Source: Fuerstiella sp. (lineage in GTDB: Bacteria; Planctomycetota; Planctomycetia; Planctomycetales; Planctomycetaceae). Taken from it: a stretch of 64,000 nucleotides of DNA. The number at the start of each line of letters is the position of its first letter. Position 1 is the stretch's first letter. The notes under the pieces are model-generated. The model had not been told where the DNA came from, made no database searches, and saw nothing but the letters and a program-made list of their open reading frames with translations. Both the position numbers and the translations under genes were made by a program. Positions 43,455 to 64,000 of this stretch are shown in pieces. Where the stretch lies: NCBI GenBank assembly GCA_022843805.1, contig JALHMY010000009.1, forward strand, positions 14,192 through 78,191. Reading direction: 5' to 3'.

Positions 43455-46400
43455 ATGGACGTCTTCCGACTCCGCGACACAATCATCGAACGATACTCTG
43501 ACTTCGTCACAAGCTTTGTGCGAATCAAAGATCCTTCGTTAAAGGCATTTGTTGCACAGCATATCGAGAGCGAATCGCTCTGGCCTGAACCGTTAATCCA
43601 GTTGAATCCGGCGTTTCAGAACGGGGGATGGATCGACGAGCTGGTTACTGAAGGGCTGCTCCACAAAGAGTGCTCCAAAGTCTTTCGTGTTAAAGACGTG
43701 ATCAAGGGCATCGACAAACCCCTGCGGTTGCACAAGCACCAGGTCGATGGACTTCGCAAGGCTCGCGAACGCAAGAACTACGTCCTGACAACCGGCACAG
43801 GCTCAGGCAAGAGTCTCTCGTATATCGTGCCGATTGTTGACCATGTGTTGAGGACTGGTCCCGGACGCGGTGTACAGGCCATCGTCGTCTATCCGATGAA
43901 TGCGTTGTGTAACAGCCAGTATGGGGAACTGCGAAAGTTCCTTCAGGAAGGATACGCAGAGGGTAAAGAGCCCGTTCGTTTCGCAAAATACACCGGTCAG
44001 GAATCCCAGGATGAGCGGCAGCTCATTGTCGACAATCCTCCAGACATCATCCTTACAAACTATGTGATGCTGGAACTCCTGCTGACGCGTCCGTTCGAAA
44101 AGAAACTTGTCGCGGCAGCGGCTGGCCTTTCGTTCCTGGTCCTTGATGAACTTCATACGTATCGAGGCCGGCAAGGGGCTGACGTCGCTCTGCTTGTGCG
44201 ACGCGTTCGGGAAGCTTGTCGGTCGCCGCAAATGCTGTGCGTCGGGACTTCCGCGACGATGTCATCCGCAGCCACTCCTGCAAAACAGAAGCAACAGATT
44301 GCAGAAGTCGCATCACGACTATTCGGTGCAGAAGTAACTCCGGACGCCGTCGTTGGGGAATCTCTCTCGCGGCAAACCCCACCGGTTGACGTGATCTCAA
44401 ATGCAGCGATTCTGAAGGCAAATATACTTGCCGAAGACTCCTCTATTCCTTCGACCTATGACGAGTTCATCAGGACGCCGCTGGCAGTCTGGCTGGAAAG
44501 CTACTTCGGGCTTCAAAAAGCAGTTGACGACAGTCTGGTGAGATCAAAGCCGCGAGCGATCTCTGGCGACAACAGTGCTGCTGCTGAACTCGCATCACTC
44601 GCTGGTGTCGATACTGAGACATGTGCGAAGGCTATTCGTCGTTGGCTGATGGCTGGTTACGCATGTGATCCGGATCCTGTGACGCAGAGACGGCCATTTG
44701 CGTTTCGATTGCATCAATTTATTAGTCGTGGAGACACCGTTTACGGGTCCCTCGAAGACGATGCGGATCGCGTTCTCTCTCTGTCCGGTCAGCAGTTTGC
44801 GTCCGAGGATCGAGAACGCATTCTGCTTCCAATGTGTTTTTGCCGAGAATGTGGCGCAGCTTACTATGCCGTCTGGAAGTCGGACGAACGCGGAGGAATT
44901 CATTTTGAGGCTCGCGAATTGAACGAGCGGATTGATGAACCGCCGCATCGAGAAGCCGGGTTCCTCTATCGTGATCCGGCAAATCCCTGGCCGCAAACCG
45001 ACGAAGAGATCATTCAGAGACTTCCGGACGACTGGCTCGATGAAGCCGGGGCAAAGCCACGACTGCGTAAAAGCCTCAGTGACGAGATTCCCGTCACCAT
45101 GCGGATCTCCACTGCCGGAGAACTTGCAGGCAACGGTCTGGAATTCCAATACACACGCACCCCATTCAGATTCTGCCTGGGATGTGGAGTTTCCTATCGA
45201 GTTCGTCGCGGAGCATCCGATTTCGCGCAGCTCTCGACACTTGCCAGTGGTGGCAGAAGTTCGGCCACCTCTATTCTGGGCCTCACTGCCGTTCAGTTGT
45301 TGAAACAGGAAACAACTCTCAGTGACCGGGCAAAAAAGCTACTGAGCTTCACCGATAATCGCCAGGACGCATCTTTACAGGCGGGACACTTCAACGACTT
45401 TATCGAAGTCAGCTTACTCCGTGCCGCACTGTTCAAGGCAGTCAGTAACAATCCTGAGGGTATCGACCACGATGAACTCCCGCTGAAAGTGTTTCGGGCA
45501 CTGAACCTGGACTTTGCTTTGTACGCAAGGGAACCGGGAGCGGAGTTTGCTCTTAAGAACGACACAGAAAAGGCTTTTCGTAATGTACTGGCCTATCGAC
45601 TTTACCGCGACCTGCGACGCGGCTGGAGAATTGCTTCACCGAATCTGGAGCAGTGCGGATTGCTGCAGATTCACTATCCATCACTTTCTGAACTTTGTGC
45701 ATCTGACAAACACTGGGCCAAAACGCACGGTGCCCTCGCAACCGCCAGCCCCTCTGCGCGTGAAGCAGTAACGCACGTTCTACTCGACTTCATGCGACGT
45801 GAATTGGCAATCGATGTCGATTTCCTGACTGCAGAGTTCTTTGAGCGATTGCAGCAACAAAGCGCCCAGCGGCTTCGAGAGCCATGGGCAATCGACGAAC
45901 AGGAGCGTGGTGAGTTTGCTGGAACGGTCTTTCCGCGTGCACGACGTCACGGGGAGAGGCAATTCAGTACGTTTCTGTCGTCCAGAAGCGGGTTTGGTCT
46001 TTTCCTGAAGCGCCCTGCTACGTTTCCGAACTACGGTTCGGCGTTGAAAACAAAAGATCAGGACGAGATCTGTCGCGACCTGTTTTCTGTGCTGGGAAAA
46101 ACCGGTTTTGTAGTCGCCGTGACCGAACCCGACGAACAGGGAATCTGTGGTTATCGCCTCTCTGCTGCTGCGATGAGATGGGTGAAGGGTGATGGAGTCG
46201 TAGCGTTTCATGATCCCATCCGAGTTCCAAATCCTCCTGTCGATGGAAGCGCGACCAACTCGTTCTTTGTCGATTTCTACCGCAAGTTTGCGTCCTCTCT
46301 TCAGGGACTTGAAGCCCGCGAACACACAGCTCAGGTTCCATATGCAGAACGTGAGAAGCGAGAAGAGCAGTTCAGCAAAGCACAGCTGCCGGTCTTGTTC

Positions 46401-49037
46401 TGCTCGCCTACGATGGAGCTTGGTGTTGACATCAGTGAGCTAAACGTCGTCAACATGCGCAACGTACCGCCAACTCCAGCGAACTATGCTCAGAGAAGTG
46501 GACGCGCGGGACGAAGCGGGCAACCTGCATTGGTCTACACATATTGCACGACCGGAAGCTCGCACGATCAGTATTTCTTCAGACAACCTGATCGGATGGT
46601 TTCCGGAGCAGTGAATCCACCTCGACTTGATCTGGCGAATGAAGATCTCGTTCGGGCCCACGTACATGCGGTCTGGCTGGCTGAAACGGGACAATGGCTC
46701 GGCAACTCCCTCACTGACCTACTGGATTGCGAAGGAGAGAAGCCGTCACTCCAGCTTCTTCCGAGTGTCCTCAACGGTCTGACTTTGCCTGGCACAATTC
46801 AACGTGCACAGAAGAAGTGTGAAGCTATCTTCGAAACGTTTGGCGATGAATTGCAGAAGGCCGATTGGTGGCATCCTGACTGGCTTGCTCGCACTCTCTC
46901 GAACGTACTCACTGAATTCGACAAAGCTTGTGATCGATGGCGAAGTCTGTTTCGGGCCGCGACGTCTCAGCTCACGTATCAGAATCAGATCATTGCTGAT
47001 GTGGCACAACGTGAACGATGGGATGAAGCGAAGCGCATACGCCGGGAGGCCGAGGCTCAGCGAGAGTTACTGACTGACGTCAAGAATGTCTCTCAATCCG
47101 ACTTTTACAGTTATCGCTACTTCGCTTCAGAGGGCTTCCTTCCCGGTTACAGCTTCCCACGACTGCCGTTGTCTGCGTTCATTCCCGCACGCAGGCGATC
47201 TCGCGGCGAAGATGAGTTTCTGTCCCGGCCTCGCTTCCTGGCAATCTCGGAGTTTGGCCCGCGCAGCCTGATCTATCATGAAGGTTCCAGGTACATCGTC
47301 AACAAAGTCATTCTGCCGGCAGAAGAACGCGACGCTCTCACAATGAAAGCCAAGCACTGCCAGCATTGCGGCTATATGCACGAAATCGCCTCCGGCCAGA
47401 ACGGCCCGGATCTCTGTGAATCCTGCGGAAGCTCCGCGCTTCAGCCGATCACGTCTCTGTTGCGACTTCAGAACGTTGCAACGACGCGTCGAGACCGGAT
47501 CAATAGCGATGAAGAAGAACGCACGCGAATGGGATATGAGATTCGCACGGGTCTGCGATTCAAGGAGATCAATGGCCAGCAGCGATACTCAAACGCCAGC
47601 ATAACGCTGAATGATGAGCCCTTGTTCTCTCTCCGATACGGCGATGCAGCAAGGCTCTGGCGAATCAACATTGGCTGGAAGCGGCGAGCCGACAAAGACA
47701 CATATGGCTTTGTGATCGACCTGGAGAAGGGCATCTGGGAAAAATCGGACCAGCTTCATGATCAGGACGACACGTCCGATGTCATGGGACCACGGCGGCA
47801 GCGAGTTGTACCGTTCGTTGAGGATAGACGAAACTGCCTGTTGCTCAGGCCAGAAAACCGACTCGACTCCGGAACGATGCTGTCGTTACAGACTGCACTG
47901 AAAAAAGCAGTTCAGGCAATCTATCAGCTTGAAGATAACGAACTGGCCTCTGAGTCCCTGCCGTCCGACAGTGATCGCCGTGAGATTTTGCTGTATGAAG
48001 TCTCCGAGGGCGGAGCTGGCGTTTTGCGGCGATTGATTGAGGATGGCTTAACAGAAGTCGCCCGTGAAGCGTTGCGGATCTGTCACTTTAATCCGGATAC
48101 TGGCGAAGACCTGAAGCACGCACCTGGGGCTCGCGAAGACTGCGTCGCCGCCTGCTACGACTGTCTGATGACATATGCCAATCAGCGAGAGCACAAGGAA
48201 CTCGACCGGGTTGTCATAAAAGATTTGCTGATGAACTTAGCCAAGACGCAAATGCACGTCTCTCCGGGGCCAGCATCGCCGGATGCGCACTTTGAACACC
48301 TGAAAAAGAGATGCGACAGCCAGCTTGAACGCGACTGGCTCGATTTTCTTCTGGCACGCGGCCTGCGACTGCCAAGTCACGCTCAAAGCCTGCCCGAACG
48401 CGCTCAGAAAGTCTGCAGCAAGATTGGTACGAAGCCGGATTTCTTCTACGAGAATGCGTCTGTCGCCATCTACATCGACGGCCCTCCGCATGATTTCCCC
48501 GAACGACAAACACGTGATGCACTCCATGTCGTTTCGATGGAAGACAAGGGGATCATGTGTATTCGCTTTCATCATCAGGAAAACTGGGCCTCTCTCACCG
48601 ACCAGTCACCGAATGTGTTCGGTACTGCTGCGCCTTTGACAATTCGACCGCAGTCAGCCGCAGCAAATTCGGCGGGCAAAGAATCTGTTGCGAAACCCGC
48701 GCAGGTGATGATTTCGCCAACGACAGGCGAATATCTCGACCTTGATCTCTATGAAGACCATTGGCATGGCCTTGTAAAGCAATTGGCGGCCGAACCAAAG
48801 CTCAACTATACGATGGAACCTGGTGGTGATATTTCCAGCAAAGGTCGCGTTGTTGGCCAGTATTCCATCGAGCTGAGAATCGGCGACAAGCGATTTTTCA
48901 TCATCGATAGTCGCTTGCCAAATGCCGCTGCTTTTGTCGAAGCGGCTAAACAAAATGGTGTCGATGCCATTGCAATCGATCCGATGGACAGTGAGGCTCT
49001 CAAGGCTATATTGAAGGCTCAGGGAGTTCACTCATGA
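43455..49037 (+). CDS. Giant SF2 helicase with DUF1998 and C-terminal nuclease-like domain
   Basis: An 1860-residue protein. Helicase motifs: Walker A TGTGSGKS near residue 112, DELH box near 230 (LVLDELHTYRGRQG), GTSATM, and QRSGRAGRSG near 1012. A zinc ribbon (CQHCG...CESCG) lies at about 1301-1324. The DUF1998 region holds YEVSEGGAGVLRRL near 1513 and CVAACYDCLMTYAN near 1563. At about 1620-1700 a PD-(D/E)xK/Vsr-like pattern appears: LERDWLDFLL, KPDFFYENASVAIYIDG, then a helix and MCIRFHH. DUF1998 helicases occur in DISARM (DrmA/DrmB), Druantia (DruE) and MrfA; size is closest to DruE. The stop overlaps the next start by 4 nt. Confidence 0.85.
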   Translation: MDVFRLRDTIIERYSDFVTSFVRIKDPSLKAFVAQHIESESLWPEPLIQLNPAFQNGGWIDELVTEGLLHKECSKVFRVKDVIKGIDKPLRLHKHQVDGLRKARERKNYVLTTGTGSGKSLSYIVPIVDHVLRTGPGRGVQAIVVYPMNALCNSQYGELRKFLQEGYAEGKEPVRFAKYTGQESQDERQLIVDNPPDIILTNYVMLELLLTRPFEKKLVAAAAGLSFLVLDELHTYRGRQGADVALLVRRVREACRSPQMLCVGTSATMSSAATPAKQKQQIAEVASRLFGAEVTPDAVVGESLSRQTPPVDVISNAAILKANILAEDSSIPSTYDEFIRTPLAVWLESYFGLQKAVDDSLVRSKPRAISGDNSAAAELASLAGVDTETCAKAIRRWLMAGYACDPDPVTQRRPFAFRLHQFISRGDTVYGSLEDDADRVLSLSGQQFASEDRERILLPMCFCRECGAAYYAVWKSDERGGIHFEARELNERIDEPPHREAGFLYRDPANPWPQTDEEIIQRLPDDWLDEAGAKPRLRKSLSDEIPVTMRISTAGELAGNGLEFQYTRTPFRFCLGCGVSYRVRRGASDFAQLSTLASGGRSSATSILGLTAVQLLKQETTLSDRAKKLLSFTDNRQDASLQAGHFNDFIEVSLLRAALFKAVSNNPEGIDHDELPLKVFRALNLDFALYAREPGAEFALKNDTEKAFRNVLAYRLYRDLRRGWRIASPNLEQCGLLQIHYPSLSELCASDKHWAKTHGALATASPSAREAVTHVLLDFMRRELAIDVDFLTAEFFERLQQQSAQRLREPWAIDEQERGEFAGTVFPRARRHGERQFSTFLSSRSGFGLFLKRPATFPNYGSALKTKDQDEICRDLFSVLGKTGFVVAVTEPDEQGICGYRLSAAAMRWVKGDGVVAFHDPIRVPNPPVDGSATNSFFVDFYRKFASSLQGLEAREHTAQVPYAEREKREEQFSKAQLPVLFCSPTMELGVDISELNVVNMRNVPPTPANYAQRSGRAGRSGQPALVYTYCTTGSSHDQYFFRQPDRMVSGAVNPPRLDLANEDLVRAHVHAVWLAETGQWLGNSLTDLLDCEGEKPSLQLLPSVLNGLTLPGTIQRAQKKCEAIFETFGDELQKADWWHPDWLARTLSNVLTEFDKACDRWRSLFRAATSQLTYQNQIIADVAQRERWDEAKRIRREAEAQRELLTDVKNVSQSDFYSYRYFASEGFLPGYSFPRLPLSAFIPARRRSRGEDEFLSRPRFLAISEFGPRSLIYHEGSRYIVNKVILPAEERDALTMKAKHCQHCGYMHEIASGQNGPDLCESCGSSALQPITSLLRLQNVATTRRDRINSDEEERTRMGYEIRTGLRFKEINGQQRYSNASITLNDEPLFSLRYGDAARLWRINIGWKRRADKDTYGFVIDLEKGIWEKSDQLHDQDDTSDVMGPRRQRVVPFVEDRRNCLLLRPENRLDSGTMLSLQTALKKAVQAIYQLEDNELASESLPSDSDRREILLYEVSEGGAGVLRRLIEDGLTEVAREALRICHFNPDTGEDLKHAPGAREDCVAACYDCLMTYANQREHKELDRVVIKDLLMNLAKTQMHVSPGPASPDAHFEHLKKRCDSQLERDWLDFLLARGLRLPSHAQSLPERAQKVCSKIGTKPDFFYENASVAIYIDGPPHDFPERQTRDALHVVSMEDKGIMCIRFHHQENWASLTDQSPNVFGTAAPLTIRPQSAAANSAGKESVAKPAQVMISPTTGEYLDLDLYEDHWHGLVKQLAAEPKLNYTMEPGGDISSKGRVVGQYSIELRIGDKRFFIIDSRLPNAAAFVEAAKQNGVDAIAIDPMDSEALKAILKAQGVHS

Positions 49038-51124
49038 CGCCAGTGAACGTCGCCCGGACCTTCTTTACCTCGGTCAACAAACTCAGCACCACTGACCGTG
49101 GACGCGTTATGGACTTTTTTGCAAAGTTCATGGAGGACCCATCCAGTCCCGGACTGAACTTTGAATCGATCCGCGGCGCAAGAGATTCCTCCGTCAAATC
49201 GGCCCGTATTACTCAGGACTTGCGAACCATCCTGTTTCAGAAGAACGGACAGGCAACACTGCTGTATGCCGGGCACCATGAAGATGCCTACCGCTGGGCG
49301 GAAGGACGGCGAGTCGAGCATCATCCGATCACCGGTGCCTTACAAATTGTCGAATCCACGGAATCCGTTCAGGCCGCTCTGCCGGACCCTGTCACAATCC
49401 AGGCACCTCGCCTGTTCGCTGCTTATGACGACGAGTACCTGATTAGCCTGGGCCTGCCTCCGGACTGGCTCACAGTGCTACGTCAGATCACCAATGAGGA
49501 TCAACTTCTGGGAGTTGCGACCCGTTTGCCAGAGGAAGTCGCCGAACGACTGTTGACACTGGCCTCCGGTGAACTGGTAACACCTCCCGTGCCAGTGTCT
49601 CCGGATCTTCCGTTGGATCAGAGCGAAGACAATCAGCGGCGGTTTGTCGTCATCAAAGACTCCACTGAACTACAATCCATTCTCGATCGCCCGATCGAAG
49701 ACTGGATTCGTTTTCTGCATCCATCGCAGCGAAGCTTGATCACAAAAGACTATCGAGGCCCCTCAAGAGTCTCCGGGGCTGCAGGCACGGGCAAGACGGT
49801 GGTCGGAATGCATCGCGCCCGTGCCCTCGCCGCAAAAGGTCTGAAAGTGCTGATGACATCTTTCGTCGGCACACTGTGCCGCAACATTGAACGCAATATG
49901 GATGTGCTCTGTGCGTGCACGCAGCAGGAATTTGACTCCACCGTTCGTGGTCGCATCACTGTCAACACGATCCACAAGATTGCATTGACGTTATTGAAGA
50001 AAGTTGACAGCCGGGTCAAGCCGGTCGATGACGAACAGCTTGAGAAGATCCTGAGCCGACGCAATTCGCAGTCAGGATTCCTGTTCGAAACAGGATTCCC
50101 TCTGGCCGAATGGAACGGCGTGATTGATCCTCAGGGAATCCAGTCGTGGGAACAATACCGGAGTGCGCCCCGAACCGGACGAGGCAAGCCTCTCACTGTC
50201 AAACAACGCCGTGACGCATGGTCGATTTTTCAGGGGGCCATCGACGACCTGCGACAGCAGGCACTTTACACATGGTCGCAGATTTGCATCAAGGCCGTGG
50301 AACTGCTCGAAAGTGGTCAGGTTGAAAGTCCTTTTGACGCCGTCATTGTCGATGAGGTTCAGGACCTGCAACCGCAGGAACTCAGGCTGCTGGCGGCCCT
50401 GACAAACAAGGCTCCTGAAAACTTGATGCTGCTTGGTGACGCCGGACAGCGAATCTATCCCGGCGGCTTTAGTCTCAGTCGCCTGGGAATCGACGTCCGA
50501 GGCCGCTCGACGATTCTGCGGATCAACTACCGCACAACGGATCAGATTCGCCGTTTCGCCGACCAGTTGATACCACCGAAGACCGACGACTTCAATGAAG
50601 CCGTTGAGGACCGTAAATCTCGCAGTCTGCTCACCGGTCCAGTTCCACAACTGCATGGCTGTCGCACCGAACACGAGCAGCAACAGTTCGTTGTCCAGAG
50701 AATCCGTGATGCGATTGCCAAAGGTCTACAGCCGCGTGAGATTGCCGTCTTTGCGCGCTCACACAATCAATTGAAGGGCGTGGCCAAAGCTGTCGCGGAC
50801 GCGGACATTGCCGTTCACAACGTCGGCGCGGGAAGCGAAGAAGGCGATTCCTCCGGAGTTAACTTCGCGACCATGCACCGAGCCAAGGGACTGGAGTTCA
50901 AGTTCGTCTTTGTCATCGGCTGCTCAAACGACATTGTGCCGCATCGTTATACCCTGACTCAACTCACCGATCAGGCCGACATTGATGCGGGGCTCGAACG
51001 TGAAAGACAGTTGCTCTACGTCGCAATCACACGAGCCCGAGACGAGGCGTTCATCACCTGGGTTGGTGAACCCTCTGAGTTCTTATTACCCCATATTCAG
51101 TCACAGAACGGAACGACGACATGA
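49034..51124 (+). CDS. RelE-fold domain fused to UvrD-type SF1 helicase
   Basis: A 696-residue protein. Residues about 1-100 have the RelE/ParE toxin pattern: ARTFFTSVNKLSTTDRGRVMDF, then SVKSARITQDLRTILFQ and LLYAGHHEDAYRWAEGR. After a linker comes an SF1 helicase with GAAGTGKTVVGMHRAR near residue 248, VDEVQDLQPQEL near 438, INYRTT and a C-terminal LYVAITRARDEAF near 661. UvrD family members unwind DNA 3' to 5'. Genes on both sides overlap by 4 nt, so it is an integral part of the defence operon. Whether the RelE domain is catalytic or structural cannot be told. Confidence 0.83.
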   Translation: MTPVNVARTFFTSVNKLSTTDRGRVMDFFAKFMEDPSSPGLNFESIRGARDSSVKSARITQDLRTILFQKNGQATLLYAGHHEDAYRWAEGRRVEHHPITGALQIVESTESVQAALPDPVTIQAPRLFAAYDDEYLISLGLPPDWLTVLRQITNEDQLLGVATRLPEEVAERLLTLASGELVTPPVPVSPDLPLDQSEDNQRRFVVIKDSTELQSILDRPIEDWIRFLHPSQRSLITKDYRGPSRVSGAAGTGKTVVGMHRARALAAKGLKVLMTSFVGTLCRNIERNMDVLCACTQQEFDSTVRGRITVNTIHKIALTLLKKVDSRVKPVDDEQLEKILSRRNSQSGFLFETGFPLAEWNGVIDPQGIQSWEQYRSAPRTGRGKPLTVKQRRDAWSIFQGAIDDLRQQALYTWSQICIKAVELLESGQVESPFDAVIVDEVQDLQPQELRLLAALTNKAPENLMLLGDAGQRIYPGGFSLSRLGIDVRGRSTILRINYRTTDQIRRFADQLIPPKTDDFNEAVEDRKSRSLLTGPVPQLHGCRTEHEQQQFVVQRIRDAIAKGLQPREIAVFARSHNQLKGVAKAVADADIAVHNVGAGSEEGDSSGVNFATMHRAKGLEFKFVFVIGCSNDIVPHRYTLTQLTDQADIDAGLERERQLLYVAITRARDEAFITWVGEPSEFLLPHIQSQNGTTT

Positions 51125-53967: not shown

Positions 53968-54614
53968 TCTTTCTTCGTGTTGCGGGGCAATCGGTCTCTT
54001 GTCGTCTCCAAACTGAACTCAGCGAAATGTCAAAACACCCTTCATCACACATGGGCATCGGACGAGGCCGTTTCCGGAAGGCACTCCGGGCGGTGCTGCT
54101 TTCACAGCACGCGACGCCAAATGTGGAATCGCTGGTTCGTCAGGAACTGGGATGGAATTGTGTGTATTGCGGAGTCTCAGGCGAAGTGGAACGACTGCAA
54201 CTGGACCATCTCTGGCCTGAGGCGGAAGGTGGATGCGTTGTTATCGGGAATGTTGTCCCAGCATGTCCAACCTGCAATTCGGATCGTCGCGAAACACCGT
54301 GGCAGCATTTCCTTCGATCATCAGAACGAGTCCGAAACCGTCGCGATGCTGAGCAGGTCGAACGTCAGATTGACACCATCACTGACTACATGAACCGGCA
54401 CGATCAGGCTCGCCAGCCGGATCTTCATCATGTCCTCAGCCCCGAAGAACGGGCTCTTCTGGCAGACTTCGATCTTCTCCTGTCGGCAATTAGTGATGGA
54501 GCACTGGCTCGAACCGGGTACAAAAAGAAGTCGTCAGTGAAGTTCAATGAGCCGTGTCAGATGTTTAACGAGCTTGTGAGCGTGGCAAAGTCATTTCAGA
54601 AAGACAGTTCCTGA
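53964..54614 (+). CDS. HNH endonuclease
   Basis: The TTG at 53964 overlaps the SNF2 stop as TTGA; the ATG at 54027 (MSKHPSSHMGIG) is a good alternative because the HNH domain begins after it. The domain shows CVYCG near residue 65, LDHLWPEAEGG with the catalytic His, GNVVPACPTCNSDRR with the zinc-binding Cys pair and Asn. A helical C-terminal region of ~100 residues follows. It is the obvious candidate for DNA cleavage in the system, although the upstream helicase also has a nuclease-like domain. Confidence 0.85.
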   Translation: MIFLRVAGQSVSCRLQTELSEMSKHPSSHMGIGRGRFRKALRAVLLSQHATPNVESLVRQELGWNCVYCGVSGEVERLQLDHLWPEAEGGCVVIGNVVPACPTCNSDRRETPWQHFLRSSERVRNRRDAEQVERQIDTITDYMNRHDQARQPDLHHVLSPEERALLADFDLLLSAISDGALARTGYKKKSSVKFNEPCQMFNELVSVAKSFQKDSS

Positions 54615-54664: not shown

Positions 54665-54693
54665 TCGCTGCTTAGTCCTCCGGAAAGTCTGTC

Positions 54694-57600
54694 GTGTCCA
54701 CACGATCAAAGAACCCCTTCTCCACCGTCACCTCCTCCGGCATGCTTCTGCCATTGGACCTGCTGGTCCGTATTGCCGACGGTGACGCCAATCTGCCGGG
54801 CCTCACTCCTGATGCGTATCACCTGCGATCCGGAGAACGCCTGAACGAAGCCGCCAGCCGAGCAAGGACACAGTGCAAGGCGGCCTGGGATTCGTTTCGG
54901 CGAAAGCTGGCTGCTCTACCTGCATCAGACACGGGCACAACACTCACACGCAACGAATGGCTGCTGCCGTTGTTTCAGGAGCTGGATTACGGTCGTTTGC
55001 AGCCAAAGCCAGCGATCGTCATCGATGAGAAGACTTATCCCGTCAGCCATCGCTGGGAGGAACACGTCCCGATTCATCTGCTGTCAGCAAAGATCCCGCT
55101 CGACAAACGCACGGCAGGAGTCGACGGAGCGGCCACTCGCAGCCCGTACAGTATGGTGCAAGAACTGCTGAACCGCAGCGGAAAGTTTCGCTGGGGCATG
55201 GTCTCGAACGGCCTCAAGCTGTATCTGCTCAGAGACAACAACAGCCTGTCGCGAGCGGCAAACGTCGAATTCGATCTCGAAGCCATGATGGACGGCGAAG
55301 TCTATGCCGACTTCATGCTCCTTTGGCTGCTTTGCCATCAATCGCGGGTCGAGATTCTGTCCACAGGGGTTGGTTCTCAGGCAACCAGAGAGAACTCAGA
55401 ATCACAAGGTGCTGGCAAAAAAGGGAACGCCAAAGGCAAGGCCAGCGGCAAGACTGCGAAGTCAGCCAGCCGCAAGACGGGGAAGCTGCTGATCGAAGAA
55501 GATTATCCCGAGTCATCCGACGTCGACTCTGAATCCGATCTCGACGAACTGGATGAATCGGACGCTGTCGAGCTGCCGGAAACATCGTCGCGTCCGGATC
55601 CTTCATCCTGCTGGCTTGAACGCTGGACCAAAGAGGCCGAATCACGCGGTACGCGAGCCCGGGAGAAGCTGCGAAGCGGCGTGGAGAATGCCATCAATGC
55701 TCTGGGAGCCGGGTTCCTGGAGACTCGCGGCAATGAGCAGCTCAAACAGCGGCTGACGACAGGAACACTCGACAAGCAGGACTATTACCGGCAACTGCTC
55801 CGCATGGTCTATCGGCTGCTGTTGCTGCTGGTGGCCGAAGAGAAGAAGGACGAGAATGGCCAGAACCTGCTGCATCCGCTGGGAACACCAGAATCCGTCC
55901 GCCAGCGATACGCAAAGTTCTATTCCGTCGGACGTCTGCGAGATCTCGCGGGCTTGCGTCGAGGGACTTCGCACACGGATTTGTTCGAATCACTGAAAGT
56001 GCTGTTCGAAAAACTGCGAGAAGGCTACGAACCGCTGGGAATCCCCGGTCTCGGTTCCTTCCTGTTCTCCACGACAGCGACACCGGATCTCGACAACGCT
56101 CATTTATCCAACGTCGCGATCCTGGAGTGCTTCAGGCATCTGAGTTACACCGACGACGTCAGTAAGAGCCGTCGAGTCGTCGACTTCGGCAACCTCGGCA
56201 GCGAGGAACTCGGCAGCGTCTACGAGTCCCTGCTGGAACTGCATCCGAAGATCAATACCGACAAAGGCCCATTCATTCTCGACAGTGCTGCCGGATCCGA
56301 ACGCAAAACAACCGGCAGCTACTACACTCCGACATCGCTCATCAACTGCCTGCTCGATTCTGCATTAGACCCGGTCGTCAACGACGCCATCAACGTCAAT
56401 GATGCTACTGAAGCCGAACGCCGTCTGCTGAACCTAAAAGTCTGCGATCCCGCTTGCGGAAGTGGCCACTTCCTGATTGCCGCCGCCGAGCGACTTGCTG
56501 TGCATCTCGCACGGCTTAGAACCGGCGACGATCAACCACCGACGATGGTTGTCCAGCACGCCAAACGAGACATCATCGGTCGTTGCATTTACGGGGTCGA
56601 CCTGAACCCGATGGCCGTTGAGTTGTGCAAGGTCAGCCTATGGATGGAGGCACTGGATCCCGGTCGACCGTTGTCGTTCCTCGACCACCACATCCAGTGC
56701 GGCAACAGCTTGCTTGGTACAACACCCGCATTATTAAAAGAGGGCATTCCCGACGATGCCTTCAATCCAATTGAAGGTGACGTCAAGACTGTCTGTGCCG
56801 AACTAAAACGGCAGAACAAGCGAGAACGCCAGGACCGTGAACGCGGTCAGGGACTGTTTGAATTTGAGCCTTACATCAAGCTTGGCAATCTGCCGTCCGA
56901 GTTCTCACGCCTGTCGAGCAGCAGTGATGACTCTGTCACGGATCTGGCTGCAAAAGAACGCCGCTACGCGGAACTGGTGAAAGACGCCAATTACCTTAAC
57001 GCTAGGTTACTTGCTGATCTTTGGTGTGCCGTGTTTGTCTGGAAGAAAAACATCAGCGATCTTGGAAAGCTCTGCCCTACTGAAAACGATTTCCGCAAAA
57101 TCGAAAACAACCCGCACAGCACGCTGCCGCACGTGAAGTCCGAGGTCCGGCATCTGGCTGATCAGTACCAGTTTTTTCATTGGCATCTCGCCTTCCCAGA
57201 CGTTTTTCAATTGCCGGAGGTAGCGGATAGGGCGGAGAACGAGCGGACTGGGTGGAGTCGCGGGTTCGATGTGGTGTTGGGAAATCCGCCGTGGGAGCGG
57301 TTGAAAGTTTCCGACATTGAGTTCTTCTCGCGCACCCGTCCCGACATTGCGGACATCTCGAACGCAGCAAAACGACGCAAGGCGATAGAGGAGCTTTCAG
57401 AGTCTGAAAAAGAGCTTAGCGACCTTTGGTCGGAGGAGTTGCGGATTGGAGCCGGTAAAGCCTCCTTCGTTAAATTTTCAAACGTGTTTCCGCTCACTGG
57501 GCTAGGGGAACTCAACACATTCGCTCTATTTGCCGAGGTTAATCGATCGTTGATTTCTCAGTGCGGACGTGCTGGGTTTATTATTCAGAGTGACATTGCA

Positions 57601-59610
57601 ACAGGAAAAACCTATCGGCACTTCTTTGCCGATTTGCTTGAGACCGGTCAACTTCGCTCGTTTTATGACTTCGTTAATACTGAGGGACTGTTCCCAAACA
57701 TCCACCGTACGCATCCGCACTTCTGCCTCATAACCTTGTCCGGCACGTCTGATCACCGGGAGTCAGATTTTGCTTTCTGGAACAGTAACGTTGGACATTT
57801 GGCCGAAGTTGATCGTCACTTCACTTTGTCAGCAGACGATTTGCGTACGGTCAATCCGAACACTTTGAATTGCCCCATATTCCACAGCAGCGACGATGCA
57901 GCCCTCTGTCTGTTCATCTATCGAAGTCTTAGTGTTCTTGACCGCGATGATGGTGAAGACAGCGGTTGGAAACCTCGCGTGACGTTCGTGTTTGAAATGA
58001 ACAAGCATTCGCATCTCTTCAAAAGCGCAGGTGAACTAATTCAACCAGGTGAGGCGGTAGATATCCAACATCAAATCGTAGATGCAAATGGCGACCAATG
58101 GGTTTCACTTTACGAAGCAAAGCAGATTCACCAGTTTGACCACCGATACGCGACATTCGGAGTGGCCGGTGACAAAGTAGATTCCCGTGATTGCACGATA
58201 CCTGAGCACCAACTCGCCGAGTTTGTTCCCCAACCGCAACAGCTGGTGAAATTGGTAGATTTTCGATCGGTAACGGAAAAACGCGAGATTCGAGACGCAT
58301 GGCTTCTTACGTACCGGGATATCACGAACTCTTCAAACGTTCGAACCAGCATCTTCTCCGCGTTGCCGTACGTCCCTATGGGCAATACGTGGACGCTAAT
58401 CATGCCAGATGTTGGTGCGGTGGAAGCTACCTGCTTTTTAGCCAACATGAACTCGTTTCCGAGTGACTACATCTCGCGCCGCAAAATCGGAGGTGCTCAT
58501 CTCAACTACTACATACTCCGACAATTACCTGTCGTTTCTCGCTCAGGATATCAAGTCGAATGTGGATGGGGGTCTACTGAACTTGCACAATGGATCATGC
58601 CTCGCGTGCTCGAACTGACATACACGGCTTGGGACTTGGAAGCGTTTGCATTGGACTGCCGTTACGACGGGCCGCCGTTCCGCTGGGATGAGGAGCGTCG
58701 GTTTCTGCTGCGGTGCGAGCTGGATGCCGCGTACTTTCATTTGTACCTCGGCGCGTCCGAAGAATGGGGCAACGACAACCCACAGCTCCGCGAGATGTTC
58801 CCCACGCCTCGCCACGCCGTCGAGTACATCATGGAAACCTTCCCCATCGTCAAACGCAAAGACATCAAACGCACCACCATCATCGACGAGAATGGCCAGG
58901 TCACCCAACCCGGCACCTACATCACCAAAGACACCATCCTCTCCATCTACGACGCCATGACCGACTCCATCCGCACCGGCGTCCCCTACCAAACCCGCCT
59001 CGATCCACCACCTGGCCCCCCCACTGACGCCGACGGCCATATCATACCTTTCGCCGAATGGACCACCGAGATTCGCGACCGGTACGCGGATGTCATCCAC
59101 CCACCGCGAGATCGGAGGGCGACGCCACGGCAGCTTCGCCGAGACCGTGGAGAAAAGATTCTTATCCTGCGTCTTCTGCTGGCAAAAGCACGTTCAGCGG
59201 TACAGGTGCAGGCGCTGGAATTGATGCTGCTGTTTGCTCTCAACGATGGACTCCGCCAACGCGTCGCTGAGAAGCGTTCAGCCACCCAACCGGCAGAGGC
59301 TCAGCCCTCCAGTTTTCGCTGGCTGCCGGGCTTGCAGGGACACCTTAATGCTCTGCAGGGCAAGAGCGTCGTTGCTATCGAGAAACGCAACGACTCCAAA
59401 TTCGTTACGCTGCTCAACGATTCCGGACTCGATGGTGCCATCGCAAAATCTCTGGCCCCGATCATTGACCAGGCGATCTCCGCATTCGAAGTCATCAAAA
59501 CGAAACGAGAGGCAGACGCCGCAGACCGCGAACTGACGGAACTGGAGCAACAGAAACTCTTGATTGACTTCGTTGAGGAGGGAGAGCTTGAAACACTTGA
59601 CACTCTTTGA
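54694..59610 (+). CDS. Eco57I-class DNA adenine methyltransferase, DrmMI/PglX-like
   Basis: The GTG at 54694 has GGAAAG 7 nt upstream. The 1638-residue protein has an N-terminal domain (about 1-220) with the pattern LNRSGKFRWGMVSNGLKLYLLRD seen in large Eco57I-type methylases. A Lys/Gly/Ala-rich then acidic low-complexity linker (about 230-290) follows. A helical block precedes the methylase with DPACGSGHFLIAAAERLAVHLARL near residue 584 and VVLGNPPWERLK near 862 (N6-adenine type). The rest is target-recognition-like, plus a helical C-terminus. No PD-(D/E)xK triad was evident, so it may only methylate. In DISARM and BREX such enzymes mark host DNA. Confidence 0.85.
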   Translation: MSTRSKNPFSTVTSSGMLLPLDLLVRIADGDANLPGLTPDAYHLRSGERLNEAASRARTQCKAAWDSFRRKLAALPASDTGTTLTRNEWLLPLFQELDYGRLQPKPAIVIDEKTYPVSHRWEEHVPIHLLSAKIPLDKRTAGVDGAATRSPYSMVQELLNRSGKFRWGMVSNGLKLYLLRDNNSLSRAANVEFDLEAMMDGEVYADFMLLWLLCHQSRVEILSTGVGSQATRENSESQGAGKKGNAKGKASGKTAKSASRKTGKLLIEEDYPESSDVDSESDLDELDESDAVELPETSSRPDPSSCWLERWTKEAESRGTRAREKLRSGVENAINALGAGFLETRGNEQLKQRLTTGTLDKQDYYRQLLRMVYRLLLLLVAEEKKDENGQNLLHPLGTPESVRQRYAKFYSVGRLRDLAGLRRGTSHTDLFESLKVLFEKLREGYEPLGIPGLGSFLFSTTATPDLDNAHLSNVAILECFRHLSYTDDVSKSRRVVDFGNLGSEELGSVYESLLELHPKINTDKGPFILDSAAGSERKTTGSYYTPTSLINCLLDSALDPVVNDAINVNDATEAERRLLNLKVCDPACGSGHFLIAAAERLAVHLARLRTGDDQPPTMVVQHAKRDIIGRCIYGVDLNPMAVELCKVSLWMEALDPGRPLSFLDHHIQCGNSLLGTTPALLKEGIPDDAFNPIEGDVKTVCAELKRQNKRERQDRERGQGLFEFEPYIKLGNLPSEFSRLSSSSDDSVTDLAAKERRYAELVKDANYLNARLLADLWCAVFVWKKNISDLGKLCPTENDFRKIENNPHSTLPHVKSEVRHLADQYQFFHWHLAFPDVFQLPEVADRAENERTGWSRGFDVVLGNPPWERLKVSDIEFFSRTRPDIADISNAAKRRKAIEELSESEKELSDLWSEELRIGAGKASFVKFSNVFPLTGLGELNTFALFAEVNRSLISQCGRAGFIIQSDIATGKTYRHFFADLLETGQLRSFYDFVNTEGLFPNIHRTHPHFCLITLSGTSDHRESDFAFWNSNVGHLAEVDRHFTLSADDLRTVNPNTLNCPIFHSSDDAALCLFIYRSLSVLDRDDGEDSGWKPRVTFVFEMNKHSHLFKSAGELIQPGEAVDIQHQIVDANGDQWVSLYEAKQIHQFDHRYATFGVAGDKVDSRDCTIPEHQLAEFVPQPQQLVKLVDFRSVTEKREIRDAWLLTYRDITNSSNVRTSIFSALPYVPMGNTWTLIMPDVGAVEATCFLANMNSFPSDYISRRKIGGAHLNYYILRQLPVVSRSGYQVECGWGSTELAQWIMPRVLELTYTAWDLEAFALDCRYDGPPFRWDEERRFLLRCELDAAYFHLYLGASEEWGNDNPQLREMFPTPRHAVEYIMETFPIVKRKDIKRTTIIDENGQVTQPGTYITKDTILSIYDAMTDSIRTGVPYQTRLDPPPGPPTDADGHIIPFAEWTTEIRDRYADVIHPPRDRRATPRQLRRDRGEKILILRLLLAKARSAVQVQALELMLLFALNDGLRQRVAEKRSATQPAEAQPSSFRWLPGLQGHLNALQGKSVVAIEKRNDSKFVTLLNDSGLDGAIAKSLAPIIDQAISAFEVIKTKREADAADRELTELEQQKLLIDFVEEGELETLDTL

Positions 59611-61537
59611 TGAGGAGGCAACGACTCTGTTGCCCGCGCCTGAACGGTCTGAGCCGCTCATCTGGATTCGCAAACTGCGCATTCTTGACGGACCATCGGC
59701 AGAGGCCAAAGAAATTCGTTCAATCCCGTTCAAACGCGGTCTGAACGTCGTCGCCACGGCAGAACATCCGGGTGATGACGAGATCTCCACCGTCGGCCAC
59801 AGTGTTGGCAAGAGTCTGTTGAGCCGATTCATCCGCTTCAGCCTCGGAGAACCCGGTTACGCAGAGCGGTCCGTTCGTCAGGCAATCATCAGCTTCTTGC
59901 CGCACGGGTACGTGGTCGCTGAAATCATGTTGGATGGAACGGCGTGGCACGTGGCTCGACCGATCGGCCTGGACTCGCCGAATTCAGCATCATGGTCCGC
60001 TTCCGTAGAGTCGGAACTCTTCGAATCGCAACAGCGTCGGCCGTATACGGCGTTTCTGGACGCAGTGCATGCGGCGGTCATCGCACCGTTGCCGGAAATA
60101 CGACTTCCGCATGCGGGACGTCCAATCGGGTGGACCGACCTGCTTGGCTGGCTGTCGCCCGACCAGGATTGTGCACACCAAACGCACGCCCAGTGGAGAC
60201 CCGGTGGTGTTGATCCGGCAAACCGTGGTCTTGCTATAGAAGACAACCACATCATCATTCGAACCGTGATGGACCTACTGACTTCCGAAGATTCAGGTCT
60301 TATCACCGCTCATAGAACGCTGCTCAGCCAGCAAGGACAACTGGGCAGGAAAATAGATCTCACAAAGGCCATCGTGAGTGCGCGTCTGCGTGACGCACAG
60401 GCGGCTGCCGAAGACAGCGAACTTCAGGGGATCATGGAAGCCGCCGTCCTGGAAAAAGATGCACGCGAACGTCGTGAGTCGCTTGAGCGGCTGTTGGATG
60501 AAGAACTTGAAGACGACCCTGTGCAAATATGGCGTGAGAAGAACTCGGCGTTACAGAGGACGATCGGTGCCACAACACAGAAGTTGACAGAGGAACAGAA
60601 CAACCTGGACGTTGCCAAGGCACAACTCGCCGTCCTTTTGGATGTAGATGGTGAATTGGAAGCCAGCGCAAAACTCGGTCGATGGTGTGATCTGTTTGCA
60701 ACTGAGGAAGAAGCTGTCGGCCAGGGTTGCCCAGGCAACACCTGCGGACCAGACGCCACCGCTCCGGATCCTCGCAGGGTCAAGGACGTCAAAGCGACGA
60801 TTCAGGAAGCGACCGGTCGCTGTGACAATCTGAAGCAGGAGTTGAAGCGACTTGAGCAGGATGCGGAGGTCAGCAAAACAGAACTAAAAACCGCTCGCCG
60901 CGAAGTCAATGCCTGGAGAAAACCACTCCAGGACAAGATTGCTCACTACGAGAACGTTGAGCGACTTGCCGGCGCGTATCGTCGTGCTGAAGAACAGTTG
61001 GGCCAGTTAGAAGGCCAGGGGCGTTCGATTAAGTCACAGATCCGCGACTCGCTGAAGACACGAAGGGACGCGGATCGCAACTATCGCGAAAATCATGAAG
61101 CCTTGAACCAGCGGTTCGCAACTGAACTCTCGGCACTGCTTGCTCAGGATGTCGATGGAACAATTCGCATCGACGCAAACGGTATCACCCCCCAGCCCGG
61201 CGCGGCAGCCCGAGCCCGTGGTGGTGCTCTTCGAACGTCATCCGTGTTTGCCTTCGACCTCGCCTGCCTTGCGGCCAGCATCGCCGGACTCGGTGCCCAC
61301 CCACGTTTCCGCCTTCACGATAGCCCCGCCACAGCCGACATGGAGCGGCCACTTTACCAGCGGCTCTTCAATGTGATCGCCACCATGGAAGACATCTTTA
61401 AAGACGGCGAGCCATCATTCCAATACATCATTACGACCACCACAGTGCCGCCGGAAAAATTTCTCAAGAAGCCATACCTGTCATTGCTACTGGACGGAAG
61501 AAAACCAGAAGGCTTCCTGCTGGGAAGGGAGTTTTAA
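59588..61537 (+). CDS. SMC/Rad50-like ATPase with central coiled coil
   Basis: The TTG at 59588 follows GGAGGGAG and overlaps the methylase end by 23 nt; the frame opens at 59564. The 649-residue protein has an N-terminal ATPase half with GHSVGKSLLSRFIRFSL near residue 70 as Walker A. A long coiled coil (about 245-510) is interrupted by GQGCPGNTCGPD, a possible Cys hook or hinge. The C-terminal half has LRTSSVFAFDLACLAASIAG and RFRLHDSP near 572 as signature/Walker B. The layout resembles DUF2326-like and Lamassu LmuB-type ATPases that sense or hold DNA ends. It is part of the defence operon by overlap. Confidence 0.78.
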   Translation: MKHLTLFDEEATTLLPAPERSEPLIWIRKLRILDGPSAEAKEIRSIPFKRGLNVVATAEHPGDDEISTVGHSVGKSLLSRFIRFSLGEPGYAERSVRQAIISFLPHGYVVAEIMLDGTAWHVARPIGLDSPNSASWSASVESELFESQQRRPYTAFLDAVHAAVIAPLPEIRLPHAGRPIGWTDLLGWLSPDQDCAHQTHAQWRPGGVDPANRGLAIEDNHIIIRTVMDLLTSEDSGLITAHRTLLSQQGQLGRKIDLTKAIVSARLRDAQAAAEDSELQGIMEAAVLEKDARERRESLERLLDEELEDDPVQIWREKNSALQRTIGATTQKLTEEQNNLDVAKAQLAVLLDVDGELEASAKLGRWCDLFATEEEAVGQGCPGNTCGPDATAPDPRRVKDVKATIQEATGRCDNLKQELKRLEQDAEVSKTELKTARREVNAWRKPLQDKIAHYENVERLAGAYRRAEEQLGQLEGQGRSIKSQIRDSLKTRRDADRNYRENHEALNQRFATELSALLAQDVDGTIRIDANGITPQPGAAARARGGALRTSSVFAFDLACLAASIAGLGAHPRFRLHDSPATADMERPLYQRLFNVIATMEDIFKDGEPSFQYIITTTTVPPEKFLKKPYLSLLLDGRKPEGFLLGREF

Positions 61538-61539
61538 CT

Positions 61540-61710
61540 GTGTCTGATGTAGTTCCGATCCGTCGATGTTGGGGCTCACCCCCGAACGACATTGAAGAAG
61601 AAGTCCCCAACCTGCCTCAAGCTCGGCGGCGAGGAGAGAGTGTTGTTTGGCTGCCAGCCAATCGCGACGGAGAACACACAAGAATCACTAAGGTTCATCG
61701 AAGAGGATGA
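61540..61710 (+). CDS. 56-codon ORF between ATPase and reverse transcriptase
   Basis: A GTG at 61540 lies 2 nt after the ATPase stop and about 9 nt after GAAGGGAG. The frame encodes VSDVVPIRRCWGSPPNDIEE and ends RGESVVWLPANRDGEHTRITKVHRRG before TGA at 61708-61710. It is acidic in the middle and basic at the end, with one Cys. Close packing and the ribosome site support translation; no homologue is known to me. It could be a small partner of the RT. Confidence 0.45.
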   Translation: MSDVVPIRRCWGSPPNDIEEEVPNLPQARRRGESVVWLPANRDGEHTRITKVHRRG

Positions 61711-61789
61711 GAAATGATCGAATGAAGCAATCCGGCACCGACGTATCGAAAAGATGCATTCCCCACTTTGATTATCAGGCCTCATCACA

Positions 61790-64000
61790 ATGGACGCACG
61801 TTCTCTTCCAGAAAGCTTCATCTCAATGGAGGAGATGTACCACGCCTATCGCAAGGCTAAAGCAGACACGTTTTACGAACGCTCACAACTCTGTGCCGTT
61901 GACTTCGTGAATTTTGAAAACAACCTGACCAACAATCTTGAAGAGCTTCGCAAGACGCTAACACGTCCTGTTCCCAAAGTGACTCGGAAGGGAAAGCAGC
62001 CGTTAGCGTGGTACGAGGATATAGCGTTCATCGGTCGCTACGCATTCATTCCTAAAGGCCTGAAGCCGGTTGATCCTGAAAGGAAAAATGGGCGTCCTAC
62101 AGATTCCCTCGTGTATTCTGATCCGTGGGATCAATGGAAGGCAAAACACAATCAGGCCCAGAAGTGCTTCAAAGCTGAGTTTCGTGCTGTCGCCCACATG
62201 AAAGTGGAGATGCTCGTCATTTGCGCGCTTTGGATCAACCTTGTCGGAGAGAAGTTTGATCGATGTCTTGACGCTTGCTGTCGCGGGTCGCGATTGCGAC
62301 GTATTAAGTCGCCGCAGAAGCCGTCTGTATCCGATCTCTCAGACGATGATCCGAATCCCGGTGTCTACCACAAAGACGCGGTAGGCAGTTTCTCACCTTA
62401 CTTCGAATGCTATCGGCAATGGCGAGATGAAGGGTTTCGGGCCATCAACGCCGAACTCGATGCCGGGCGACGAGTCGTCGCCGTCACCATGGATTTGGCG
62501 AAATTCTACCATCGAGTCGACCCATCATTTCTGCTGGATCAACGCTTTCTTGACAGCTGCCGATTTGAACTGCGAAACGGACAGGCATTGTCTGAAAACG
62601 AGGCATTGTTCACAAAGCAAATAATCGCAGCTATTGAAACCTGGGGTAAATCACTTCCAACATATGAAACGGATCAACCGATTGGGCTACCAGTTGGGAC
62701 GTCCGTGGCGAGTGTCATTGCGAATGTGCTGCTGGTTGAGTTCGACCGACTCGTTTGCGAGAAGCTGTCGCCCGTCTACTACGCGAGATACGTGGATGAC
62801 ATCTTCCTCGTTCTGCGTGATTCTGATCGACTGCTCTCGCGCGAAGACCTCGTAAACAAGCTCTGCAGTGAGATTGAACCATTGAGTCGTGATGATTCGC
62901 AGCAAGAGGAGGTACTTCGCCTTCGCCTTCCATACGCAGAAAAGAGCGTTCTGGAATTCCGGGGTGATAAACAGCGTGTATTCATTCTTCGTGGCGACAT
63001 GGGCCGCGACTTTGTTGAGACCATTCGAAGCAGAGTTGACGAAGTCTCCAGTGAATGGCGGCTTATGCCTGACCTCGAAGATATTAGTCGTTCACCAGCA
63101 GCACGAGTGCTTACGGCGAACAGAACTCCCAGCGAAGATGCTGACGCGTTGAGAAAAGCCGATTCGCTCTCCCTGAGGCGATTAGGGTTTGCTTCACTAC
63201 TTCGGAGCATGGATGCAGCCGCCCGAGACTTGCCTCCTAGTGAATGGCGAGAACAGCGTCAGACGAGATATGAGTTTGCCTGTCGCCACATCGTCACTCC
63301 ACTCCGGCTATTTGATTTTGAAAGCTACTTGGCCAGATTGATTTCGATTGCTGTGGAATGTCGCGACTGGCACTGGGCAAAGAAAATGGTGGCCCAGCTT
63401 GAGGTCACCGTAGATGAGTTGGAGAATAAGGTCGTCGCGGAGGCAGAGAACAGTCAGTTACTATGGGGAGGCTTCCGCAGGCATCTTAGAAAGTCCCTGG
63501 AGATCGCGGTCTACAGGTCGATGTCATGGAGTTCGGACGATGATGTGCGGGCAATCGAATTGATATCCGCCATTGATCGCCTGCAACCCGGTGCTGATGA
63601 CATGGATGAGTGGTTTGAAAAACTTCGACTCGGAAATCCTAGCACCAGTGCAAGGACACTTTGGGCCTGTGATCTTGGGAAACGCCCGTTCAAGGAATCT
63701 CTCCTCCAGTACGACGAAGGGGCGTCAGAGAAGCTTCAATCTCTCTCCACGCCTGAAGCGTCGCCGGTCTGGCCCGAAGAGAACTCGAAGCGAGCTGAAG
63801 CTGTCAAAGTAATCGTTTCGGAATTTGCTGCCCGACTGCCGCTTTTCAAGAAAGAGCTATTCTTCCGTCCTTTGCTCTATCCCACGCGTCCGCTGACTCC
63901 CGCTGAAGTCAGTGACTGTCTGCCAATCCTGTCGGAAGATGCGACGCAATTTGCATCCACTGTTCGTGCATTGCGTGGAACATTCGTCAAGGTAAATGGC
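61790..64000 (+). CDS. Reverse transcriptase, defence (DRT/UG) type, 3' end outside window
   Basis: The frame is open from a stop at 61769 to the window end; the ATG at 61790 (MDARSLPESFISMEEMYH) is the first in frame, giving 737 codons so far. RT motif A is VVAVTMDLAKFYHRVDP near residue 232, motif B is QPIGLPVGTSVASVIANVLL, and motif C is ARYVDDIFLVL near 333. No maturase (group II intron) domain or retron ncRNA was seen. A long helical region after the RT core and the large size suggest the UG1/DRT1 group, whose members carry a C-terminal nitrilase domain; that part would lie beyond the window. It is in line with the defence operon on the same strand. Confidence 0.85.
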   Translation, partial: MDARSLPESFISMEEMYHAYRKAKADTFYERSQLCAVDFVNFENNLTNNLEELRKTLTRPVPKVTRKGKQPLAWYEDIAFIGRYAFIPKGLKPVDPERKNGRPTDSLVYSDPWDQWKAKHNQAQKCFKAEFRAVAHMKVEMLVICALWINLVGEKFDRCLDACCRGSRLRRIKSPQKPSVSDLSDDDPNPGVYHKDAVGSFSPYFECYRQWRDEGFRAINAELDAGRRVVAVTMDLAKFYHRVDPSFLLDQRFLDSCRFELRNGQALSENEALFTKQIIAAIETWGKSLPTYETDQPIGLPVGTSVASVIANVLLVEFDRLVCEKLSPVYYARYVDDIFLVLRDSDRLLSREDLVNKLCSEIEPLSRDDSQQEEVLRLRLPYAEKSVLEFRGDKQRVFILRGDMGRDFVETIRSRVDEVSSEWRLMPDLEDISRSPAARVLTANRTPSEDADALRKADSLSLRRLGFASLLRSMDAAARDLPPSEWREQRQTRYEFACRHIVTPLRLFDFESYLARLISIAVECRDWHWAKKMVAQLEVTVDELENKVVAEAENSQLLWGGFRRHLRKSLEIAVYRSMSWSSDDDVRAIELISAIDRLQPGADDMDEWFEKLRLGNPSTSARTLWACDLGKRPFKESLLQYDEGASEKLQSLSTPEASPVWPEENSKRAEAVKVIVSEFAARLPLFKKELFFRPLLYPTRPLTPAEVSDCLPILSEDATQFASTVRALRGTFVKVNG

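Follow-up and report, generated by a model that had tools for sequence, protein, structure and literature searches.

A probable Type I ARMADA variant with the gene order ArmC-ArmD-ArmA-ArmB and a methylase-linked SMC-like ATPase in a defence island of Fuerstiella sp.

ARMADA is a relative of the DISARM defence system, named in a 2025 preprint by Bell et al., and it is defined by the YprA helicase ArmC with a C-terminal Vsr nuclease, the BrxHII-like SNF2 helicase ArmA and the PglX-like methylase ArmB (PMC12458937); a further mark of the helicase is a BrxA-like insertion after RecA1. The RelE-UvrD protein ArmD is assigned in the main text of the preprint to Type II alone; Type II nearly always has it, and many Type II ArmCs end in inactive nuclease-like domains (PMC12458937). 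Protection against phage has been demonstrated only for the E. coli ARMADA II, which protects directly, without cell death, and requires all four genes (PMC12458937). As for the proteins of other systems that serve for comparison, DrmAB is activated by 5′-overhang DNA and is more strongly stimulated by unmethylated DNA (PMC9142583), DruE is a helicase-nuclease that loads on 3′ tails (PMC13192584), and LmuB, a proposed sensor of DNA ends or hairpins, has an altered Walker B motif and in many cases a motif resembling a zinc hook (PMC10586767). The locus described here lies in Fuerstiella sp., in a window (the whole stretch of DNA that was analysed) of 64 kb of contig C9 (JALHMY010000009.1; genome of 9.2 Mb in 172 contigs), where a series of genes stands head to tail on the forward strand from position 43455 to the window end at 64000.

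On sequence evidence, the segment 43455-61537 is quite probably an ARMADA system with a Type I core, in a C-D-A-B variant in which ArmD stands second and an SMC-like ATPase would be translationally coupled to the methylase; the UG5 reverse transcriptase (RT)-nitrilase and ZacABC further on would be separate systems of the same island. The locus is placed in ARMADA because ArmA, ArmB, ArmC and ArmD are all present with intact motifs, in agreement with the definition of the preprint. The catalytic motifs kept are Walker A/B in ArmC, ArmD and ArmA, DPACGSG and NPPW in ArmB, YVDD in the RT and CxxC..LDH..CxxC in the HNH protein. The first-pass annotation had known no named system with this set, but three helicases (one of them RelE-UvrD) with a PglX-like methylase are exactly ArmA-D, so that the core had already been catalogued under a known name (PMC12458937). 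That is to say, the system is known in kind and the locus is a variant of ARMADA inside a large defence island; the members of the gene set were already known, and what may be new is their combination, namely the C-D-A-B order together with a separate ArmD lineage and an ATPase that follows the methylase. Neither the C-D-A-B arrangement nor the ATPase is described in the main text of the preprint, the supplements of which may list part of them (PMC12458937). The genes and domains of the array are the following:

43455..49037, + strand: armC, YprA-family DEAD helicase with MZB/DUF1998 module, 1860 amino acids (aa) (DEAD 2e-23, Helicase_C, MZB 9.4e-10; PADLOC DruE 3e-105)
48312..48623, + strand: Vsr/EDxHD-type nuclease domain in the C-terminal part of armC (model residues 36-139; AlphaFold2 pLDDT, the predicted local distance difference test score, 80)
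48750..49034, + strand: extra C-terminal domain of armC (model residues 182-276; weak PD-(D/E)XK-like match, VRR_NUC Z 5.9)
49034..51124, + strand: armD, annotated as RelE-like N-terminal domain with UvrD/GajB-like helicase, 696 aa (UvrD_C 7e-23)
51121..53967, + strand: armA, BrxHII/DrmD-like SNF2 helicase, 948 aa (SNF2 4.9e-16; PADLOC PDLC02853 870 bits, full length; NCBIfam DISARM_DrmD 2e-92)
53964..54614, + strand: HNH endonuclease between armA and armB (HNH_5 9.4e-8; best NCBIfam models IscB/Cas9d HNH)
54694..59610, + strand: armB, PglX/DrmMI-like adenine DNA methylase, 1638 aa (Eco57I 6.8e-20; PADLOC DrmMI 1e-60; PglX models; DPACGSG, NPPW)
59588..61537, + strand: SMC/Rad50-like coiled-coil ATPase, methylase-linked accessory (start TTG at 59588, good Shine-Dalgarno sequence GAGGAGG)
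61540..61710, + strand: 56-aa open reading frame (ORF) between ATPase and RT (no Pfam match)
61790..64000, + strand: UG5-class RT-nitrilase, cut by the window end (PADLOC RT_UG5-nitrilase; full gene 1059 aa, L002:981-4160)

The ORFs, strands and junctions agree with those first annotated, with overlaps of 4 nucleotides (nt) at 49034, 51121 and 53964, an overlap of 23 nt at 59588 and a gap of 2 nt at 61537/61540, and the domain calls concur with the kinds of gene given then (helicases, HNH, methylase, SMC-like ATPase and RT). The array does not end with the window: the RT is cut by the window end, and co-directional genes run about 9 kb further, in the order 526-aa orphan, HNH protein, ZacA, ZacB and ZacC. 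Inside the array neither a sigma-70 promoter nor a terminator gave a signal above that of shuffled sequences, and an Rfam search of the window and the downstream DNA returned no RNA family. The 56-aa ORF at 61540-61710 may not be a real gene.

With ARMADA Type I the locus shares the YprA helicase in first place with its C-terminal Vsr domain, followed by the BrxHII-like SNF2 helicase and the PglX-like methylase, and its ArmC clusters there (PMC12458937); the differences are that ArmD stands second, ArmC carries an extra C-terminal domain, an HNH gene lies between armA and armB, and the ATPase follows armB. In other words, the Type I relative order C..A..B is retained, with ArmD and HNH inserted, and ArmC is Type I by sequence yet accompanied by ArmD. 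With Type II, that of E. coli NCTC 12900, for which the E. coli plasmid NZ_CP139341 (L144) served as reference, all four proteins ArmA-D are shared, but the order there is A-B-C-D instead of C-D-A-B, and both ArmC and ArmD lie in other clades. In a maximum-likelihood tree whose Type I references were picked by gene order and which left out Druantia, ArmC clusters with the Type I helicases, away from Type II, with support 100/100, and it is 46% identical to a Deinococcus ArmC of Type I gene order. The ArmA tree concurs, the Type II row there being very long and unsure in its placement.

Both an SNF2 helicase of the BrxHII/RapA-like kind and a PglX-like methylase are found in the operon, and, judging from its structural model, the YprA helicase is predicted to bear the C-terminal Vsr-type nuclease of the ARMADA definition. 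When the domain model was compared with the PDB by VIA-align, it matched I-Bth0305I at Z 8.8 and Vsr (1cw0) at Z 7.4 with a root-mean-square deviation of 3.0 over 91 residues, these Z values being moderate, and the residues E41, D78, D91, H95 and D104 (segment numbering) are conserved. The extra domain that follows, of about 110 residues, occurs in this locus and in L125, L156, L157 and L158 and is missing from ArmD-less Type I ArmCs, that is, it is confined to C-D-A-B loci (the frameshifted G192 was left out of this comparison). Since it travels with ArmD, a role as docking site for ArmD may be guessed.

A search for ArmD covered 294 genomes from the same phylum and 237 from another one, and it yielded five further loci with the order ArmC-ArmD-ArmA-ArmB (G178, G192, G323, G302 and G294); when the 294 genomes were afterwards searched for ArmA, a seventh, decayed locus (G134) came to light, in which ArmD is reduced to a remnant. 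In the tree, the ArmDs of the six loci that are intact make up a single clade (support 100/99), to which neither the Type II ArmDs nor the stand-alone RelE-UvrD proteins belong, so that the ArmD here is not of the Type II kind. Natural ArmC-ArmD fusions, which long open frames seemed to indicate in G178 and G192, were rejected: these frames are out-of-frame ORFs in GC-rich DNA, and the genes are separate. Beyond ARMADA, a RelE-UvrD-family helicase sits between DrmB and DrmC in a DISARM class 1 locus (L139:1-11794), which means that ArmD-like proteins enter DISARM too. In addition, an ArmD-like protein lies directly 3′ of a YprA-like helicase at L159:3160-11013 and L160:8607-16384, in lineages outside both ARMADA types.

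The HNH gene between armA and armB is found in this locus only. The relation of the Vsr domain to HNH genes was compared among ARMADA I loci with the ATPase (L013-L016, L019, L032-L100) in which the end of ArmC and at least 1 kb of downstream DNA were visible: the Vsr motif is intact in 16 loci without an HNH gene and lost in all of the 28 with a downstream HNH gene, and the present locus alone has both. Because the HNH-bearing loci fall into one clade on the ArmA tree, Vsr may have been exchanged for HNH a single time, and the association is weaker than its Fisher p-value suggests. Three HNH genes that were tested match Pfam HNH_2, a family other than that of the HNH at 53964, and in the C-D-A-B locus G178 the Vsr motif is lost and no HNH match was found either.

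The 870-bit match of ArmA to a model named DpdE had raised Dpd as a candidate, which the data do not favour: the same family is ArmA in ARMADA loci, and among the scanned genes near the locus there were no 7-deazaguanine insertion genes (DpdA, biosynthesis), the rest of the genome not having been searched. The model, PADLOC PDLC02853, covers the ARMADA ArmA over its full length; it is probably mislabelled and may give rise to false reports of Dpd.

On plasmids, tblastn located the ATPase gene directly behind that of the methylase in ARMADA I loci from rhizobia and Paraburkholderia, and a scan of one genome per species over 84,980 species gave 271 relatives, of which the best 80 were kept. An ArmB/DrmMI-type methylase lies directly upstream in 61 of these 80 loci (most commonly overlapping by 17 nt), which is not an unbiased rate, as the search patterns came from an alignment mostly of methylase-linked members; because of this bias and the choice of the best 80 of 271, adjacency to the methylase is not proof of the function of the ATPase. 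ArmA or ArmC is also seen in 42 of the 61 on the DNA examined, and where at least 8 kb of upstream DNA was available (n=45), ArmA is present in 41 and ArmC in 39. The same slot, after DrmMI, is occupied in DISARM class 1 by the ATPase in L037, L061, L094 and two loci of related genomes. Since UG5 RTs were found near none of the 80 relatives, the pairing of ATPase and RT in the first-pass annotation has to be given up, and, judged from its gene neighbourhoods, the ATPase would belong with the methylase and not with the RT. Elsewhere it was seen directly after BrxL in one locus and after the type I specificity subunit HsdS in two (L038:7408-11525; L054, L063). Of the cultivated relatives, Paracoccus denitrificans DSM 413 (L096) has the closest ARMADA I with the ATPase.

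Of the PDB structures, the AlphaFold2 model of the ATPase (pLDDT 85) fits YydD best (Z 30.6), then Lamassu LmuB at Z 24-26 (25.9 for one match) and Rad50 at Z 21. The P-loop lysine (K83 here) does not vary among 44 relatives, the two cysteines close to the tip of the coiled coil (C375 and C389 here) are kept in 37 and 42 of them, and the Walker B aspartate is followed by Ser or Gly, never by Glu. Fold, short coiled coil, cysteine pair in the tip region and altered Walker B are thus common to the ATPase, LmuB and B. subtilis YydD, but the partner here is a DNA methylase, not LmuA/LmuC or YydB. In the ATPase tree the supported branches force at least six changes of context; the ATPase of this locus clusters with planctomycete ARMADA and DISARM ATPases, and that of the Myxococcal C-D-A-B locus with another one from Myxococcota. 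Because the two fall into different clades, the two C-D-A-B loci seem to have filled the same slot separately.

From these data it is tentatively proposed, at slightly less than even confidence, that methylase-marked immunity uses the LmuB-like ATPase as a plug-in sensor, recruited many times into a slot overlapping the methylase gene (in ARMADA, DISARM class 1 and some restriction-modification or BREX-like loci), which would couple the sensing of DNA structure to self-marking; the proposal further takes ARMADA I to include a distinct C-D-A-B subtype, whose ArmDs are a lineage of their own, and another lineage that exchanged the Vsr nuclease for an HNH gene. Several observations weigh against the part given to the ATPase in the ARMADA variant. 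It is not specific to ARMADA, since HsdS, BrxL, an Eco57I methylase and ResIII-type helicases are its neighbours in other loci; ARMADA II and most ARMADA I plasmids of Deinococcus, Thermus and cyanobacteria gave no ATPase match; the C-D-A-B locus G178 does without it, that is, it is not needed everywhere; and an independent ArmA search met it in two of nine ArmA genomes of the same phylum, where several of the other contigs end early. The ATPase is optional. As to ArmD, first annotated as a RelE-UvrD fusion, the UvrD part stands, but the RelE fold was not detected in this ArmD itself: a RelE/HigB-type match was obtained for 6 of 15 family members, this one not among them, phmmer against the PDB found no match for it, and the profile of the 15 relatives gave only a weak one.

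The RT is a UG5-class RT-nitrilase, matching PDLC03780 with 890 bits over residues 11-1057, the nitrilase domain included, and compared with the described DRT UG5 RT-nitrilases it matches over its full length, with nothing notable that differs. The phylum has few UG5-like matches (in 3 of 294 genomes, this one included), and UG5 RTs stand solo on E. coli and Sinorhizobium plasmids. It is quite unlikely that helicases, methylase, ATPase and RT form one composite system in which a DNA product of the RT is sensed by the ATPase or the helicases, although all these genes are co-directional and tightly packed and RTs follow the ATPase in two other ARMADA loci (L059, Drt1a; L080 of Acidithiobacillus, UG36), for the three RTs represent three classes (UG5, UG1/Drt1a and UG36), and a motif scan found an RT in only 2 of the 53 methylase-adjacent loci with at least 3 kb of downstream DNA. 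The absence of UG5 from the ATPase loci and its solitary occurrence on plasmids exclude the RT from the ARMADA system by distribution; by such comparisons it is considered a known kind of defence gene and a neighbour in the island, as the first-pass annotation had allowed in suggesting that the RT was joined by proximity. The L059 locus (L059:9995-17355), in a metagenome-assembled genome of Desulfuromonadaceae, has ARMADA I with the ATPase, a Drt1a RT-nitrilase 60 nt on and then a short-Argonaute-type SIR2 gene. In our reading, the 3′ side of ARMADA is a variable slot where defence RTs recur.

Two further explanations concern the identity of the ATPase and of the core. The ATPase could be the LmuB of a Lamassu/ABC-3C-like system that by chance came to stand where it does, between ARMADA and the RT; the 56-aa ORF would then be what is left of a middle component, and the effector would be the RT. 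The fold of the ATPase is nearest to YydD and LmuB, LmuB is the only noteworthy named family that PADLOC gives for it (1.5e-10), and such operons include a small middle component, LmuC (PMC10586767). This is unlikely, however, as the ATPase gene overlaps the methylase gene by 23 nt here and stands directly 3′ of a methylase in most relatives, no LmuA- or LmuC-like protein occurs among the scanned neighbours, and the sequence link to LmuB is weak. The core, for its part, could be a strict relative of DISARM class 1 with drmA and drmB fused and drmC lost: ArmA matches DrmD (2e-92), ArmB matches DrmMI (1e-60), and the same ATPase follows DrmMI in true DISARM loci. Yet ArmC fits DruE models far better than DrmA (3e-105 vs 2e-15), it unites in a single protein the helicase and MZB/DUF1998 parts that DISARM splits into DrmA and DrmB, it clusters with the ARMADA I helicases, and no DrmB- or DrmC-like (PLD) gene occurs among the genes scanned, just as the first-pass annotation had noted the lack of drmC and of separate drmA and drmB; the tree of the preprint already sets ARMADA apart from DISARM, and this explanation is highly improbable. 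The earlier choice between a new DISARM-related type and a DISARM-like system beside an RT thus survives in the relation to DISARM and the proximity of the RT, not in the unnamed type. Druantia, which the helicase recalls through its profile likeness to DruE, differs in that here a methylase and an SNF2 helicase are the partners, and no Druantia partner gene was recognised among the genes scanned.

If the locus is the ARMADA variant proposed above, ArmB would methylate host DNA and so mark self, as its PglX/DrmMI relatives suggest, and ArmC together with ArmA would load onto phage DNA that exposes single strands or ends, translocate and cut by the C-terminal Vsr nuclease, the DNA so tracked and cut being presumably unmarked or aberrant. 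ArmD would contribute another helicase as well as a putative RNase, and the extra domain at the C-terminus of ArmC may hold it. The ATPase would most likely be a slow ATP-gated clamp that detects ends or unusual structures in DNA and gives the complex of methylase and helicases licence to act; its position and its LmuB/Rad50-like build, with a cysteine pair near the tip of the coiled coil and a Walker B aspartate that lacks the catalytic glutamate behind it, speak for such a role, and the coupling of the genes would tie it to the methylase. Immunity would be expected to be direct, not abortive, in keeping with the measurements on E. coli ARMADA II.

The whole region is a large defence island, in which the surroundings of the operon are as follows:

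35341-38767, - strand: AbiJ-like protein (AbiJ_NTD3 and Abi_C) and a protein with HEPN/Toprim N-terminal domain
39780-41654, - strand: Pycsar, PycC cyclase and PycTM effector (PADLOC 1e-122 and 2e-28, respectively)
41850..42254, + strand: XRE-family helix-turn-helix (HTH) repressor, CapH-like (Pfam HTH_19 8e-13; PADLOC capH 1.7e-15)
42259..43215, + strand: ImmA/IrrE (M78) protease, CapP-like (Pfam Peptidase_M78 6.5e-12; PADLOC capP 6.3e-26)
L002:4167-5747: 526-aa orphan protein after the RT (no Pfam or PADLOC match)
L002:6741-12834 (C9:81741-87834), co-directional with the operon: ZacABC, complete (PADLOC ZacA 3e-84, ZacB 2e-114, ZacC 7e-255)

The pair of XRE repressor and ImmA protease (41850-43215) is co-directional with the operon and ends 239 nt upstream of armC, a position from which it is possibly the regulator of the operon. 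Pairs of an XRE repressor and an M78 protease turn defence operons on upon DNA damage; since they act as damage-triggered switches, stress-induced expression of this operon may reasonably be guessed. The 526-aa protein has no relatives in plasmids or in 246 genomes of the phylum. ZacABC is a neighbour of ARMADA I in Mesorhizobium AR02 (L015) as well, and of the ATPase in L078; at 21016-22917 on the + strand of the window a cysteine-desulfurase-like aminotransferase (DndA/SspA-like) is fused to a methyltransferase domain.

A reading that counted the RT into the system is corrected by this comparison. ARMADA has so far been described as a three- or four-gene system, and the relatives found here indicate a further, methylase-coupled SMC-like component that it has in common with DISARM. 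They indicate, moreover, a subtype of Type I with its own lineage of RelE-UvrD helicase, and a nuclease swap between a Vsr domain within ArmC and a separate HNH gene. Should the ATPase prove to be a sensor, an experimental handle would be gained on what, beyond methylation, marks DNA as foreign for DISARM and ARMADA.

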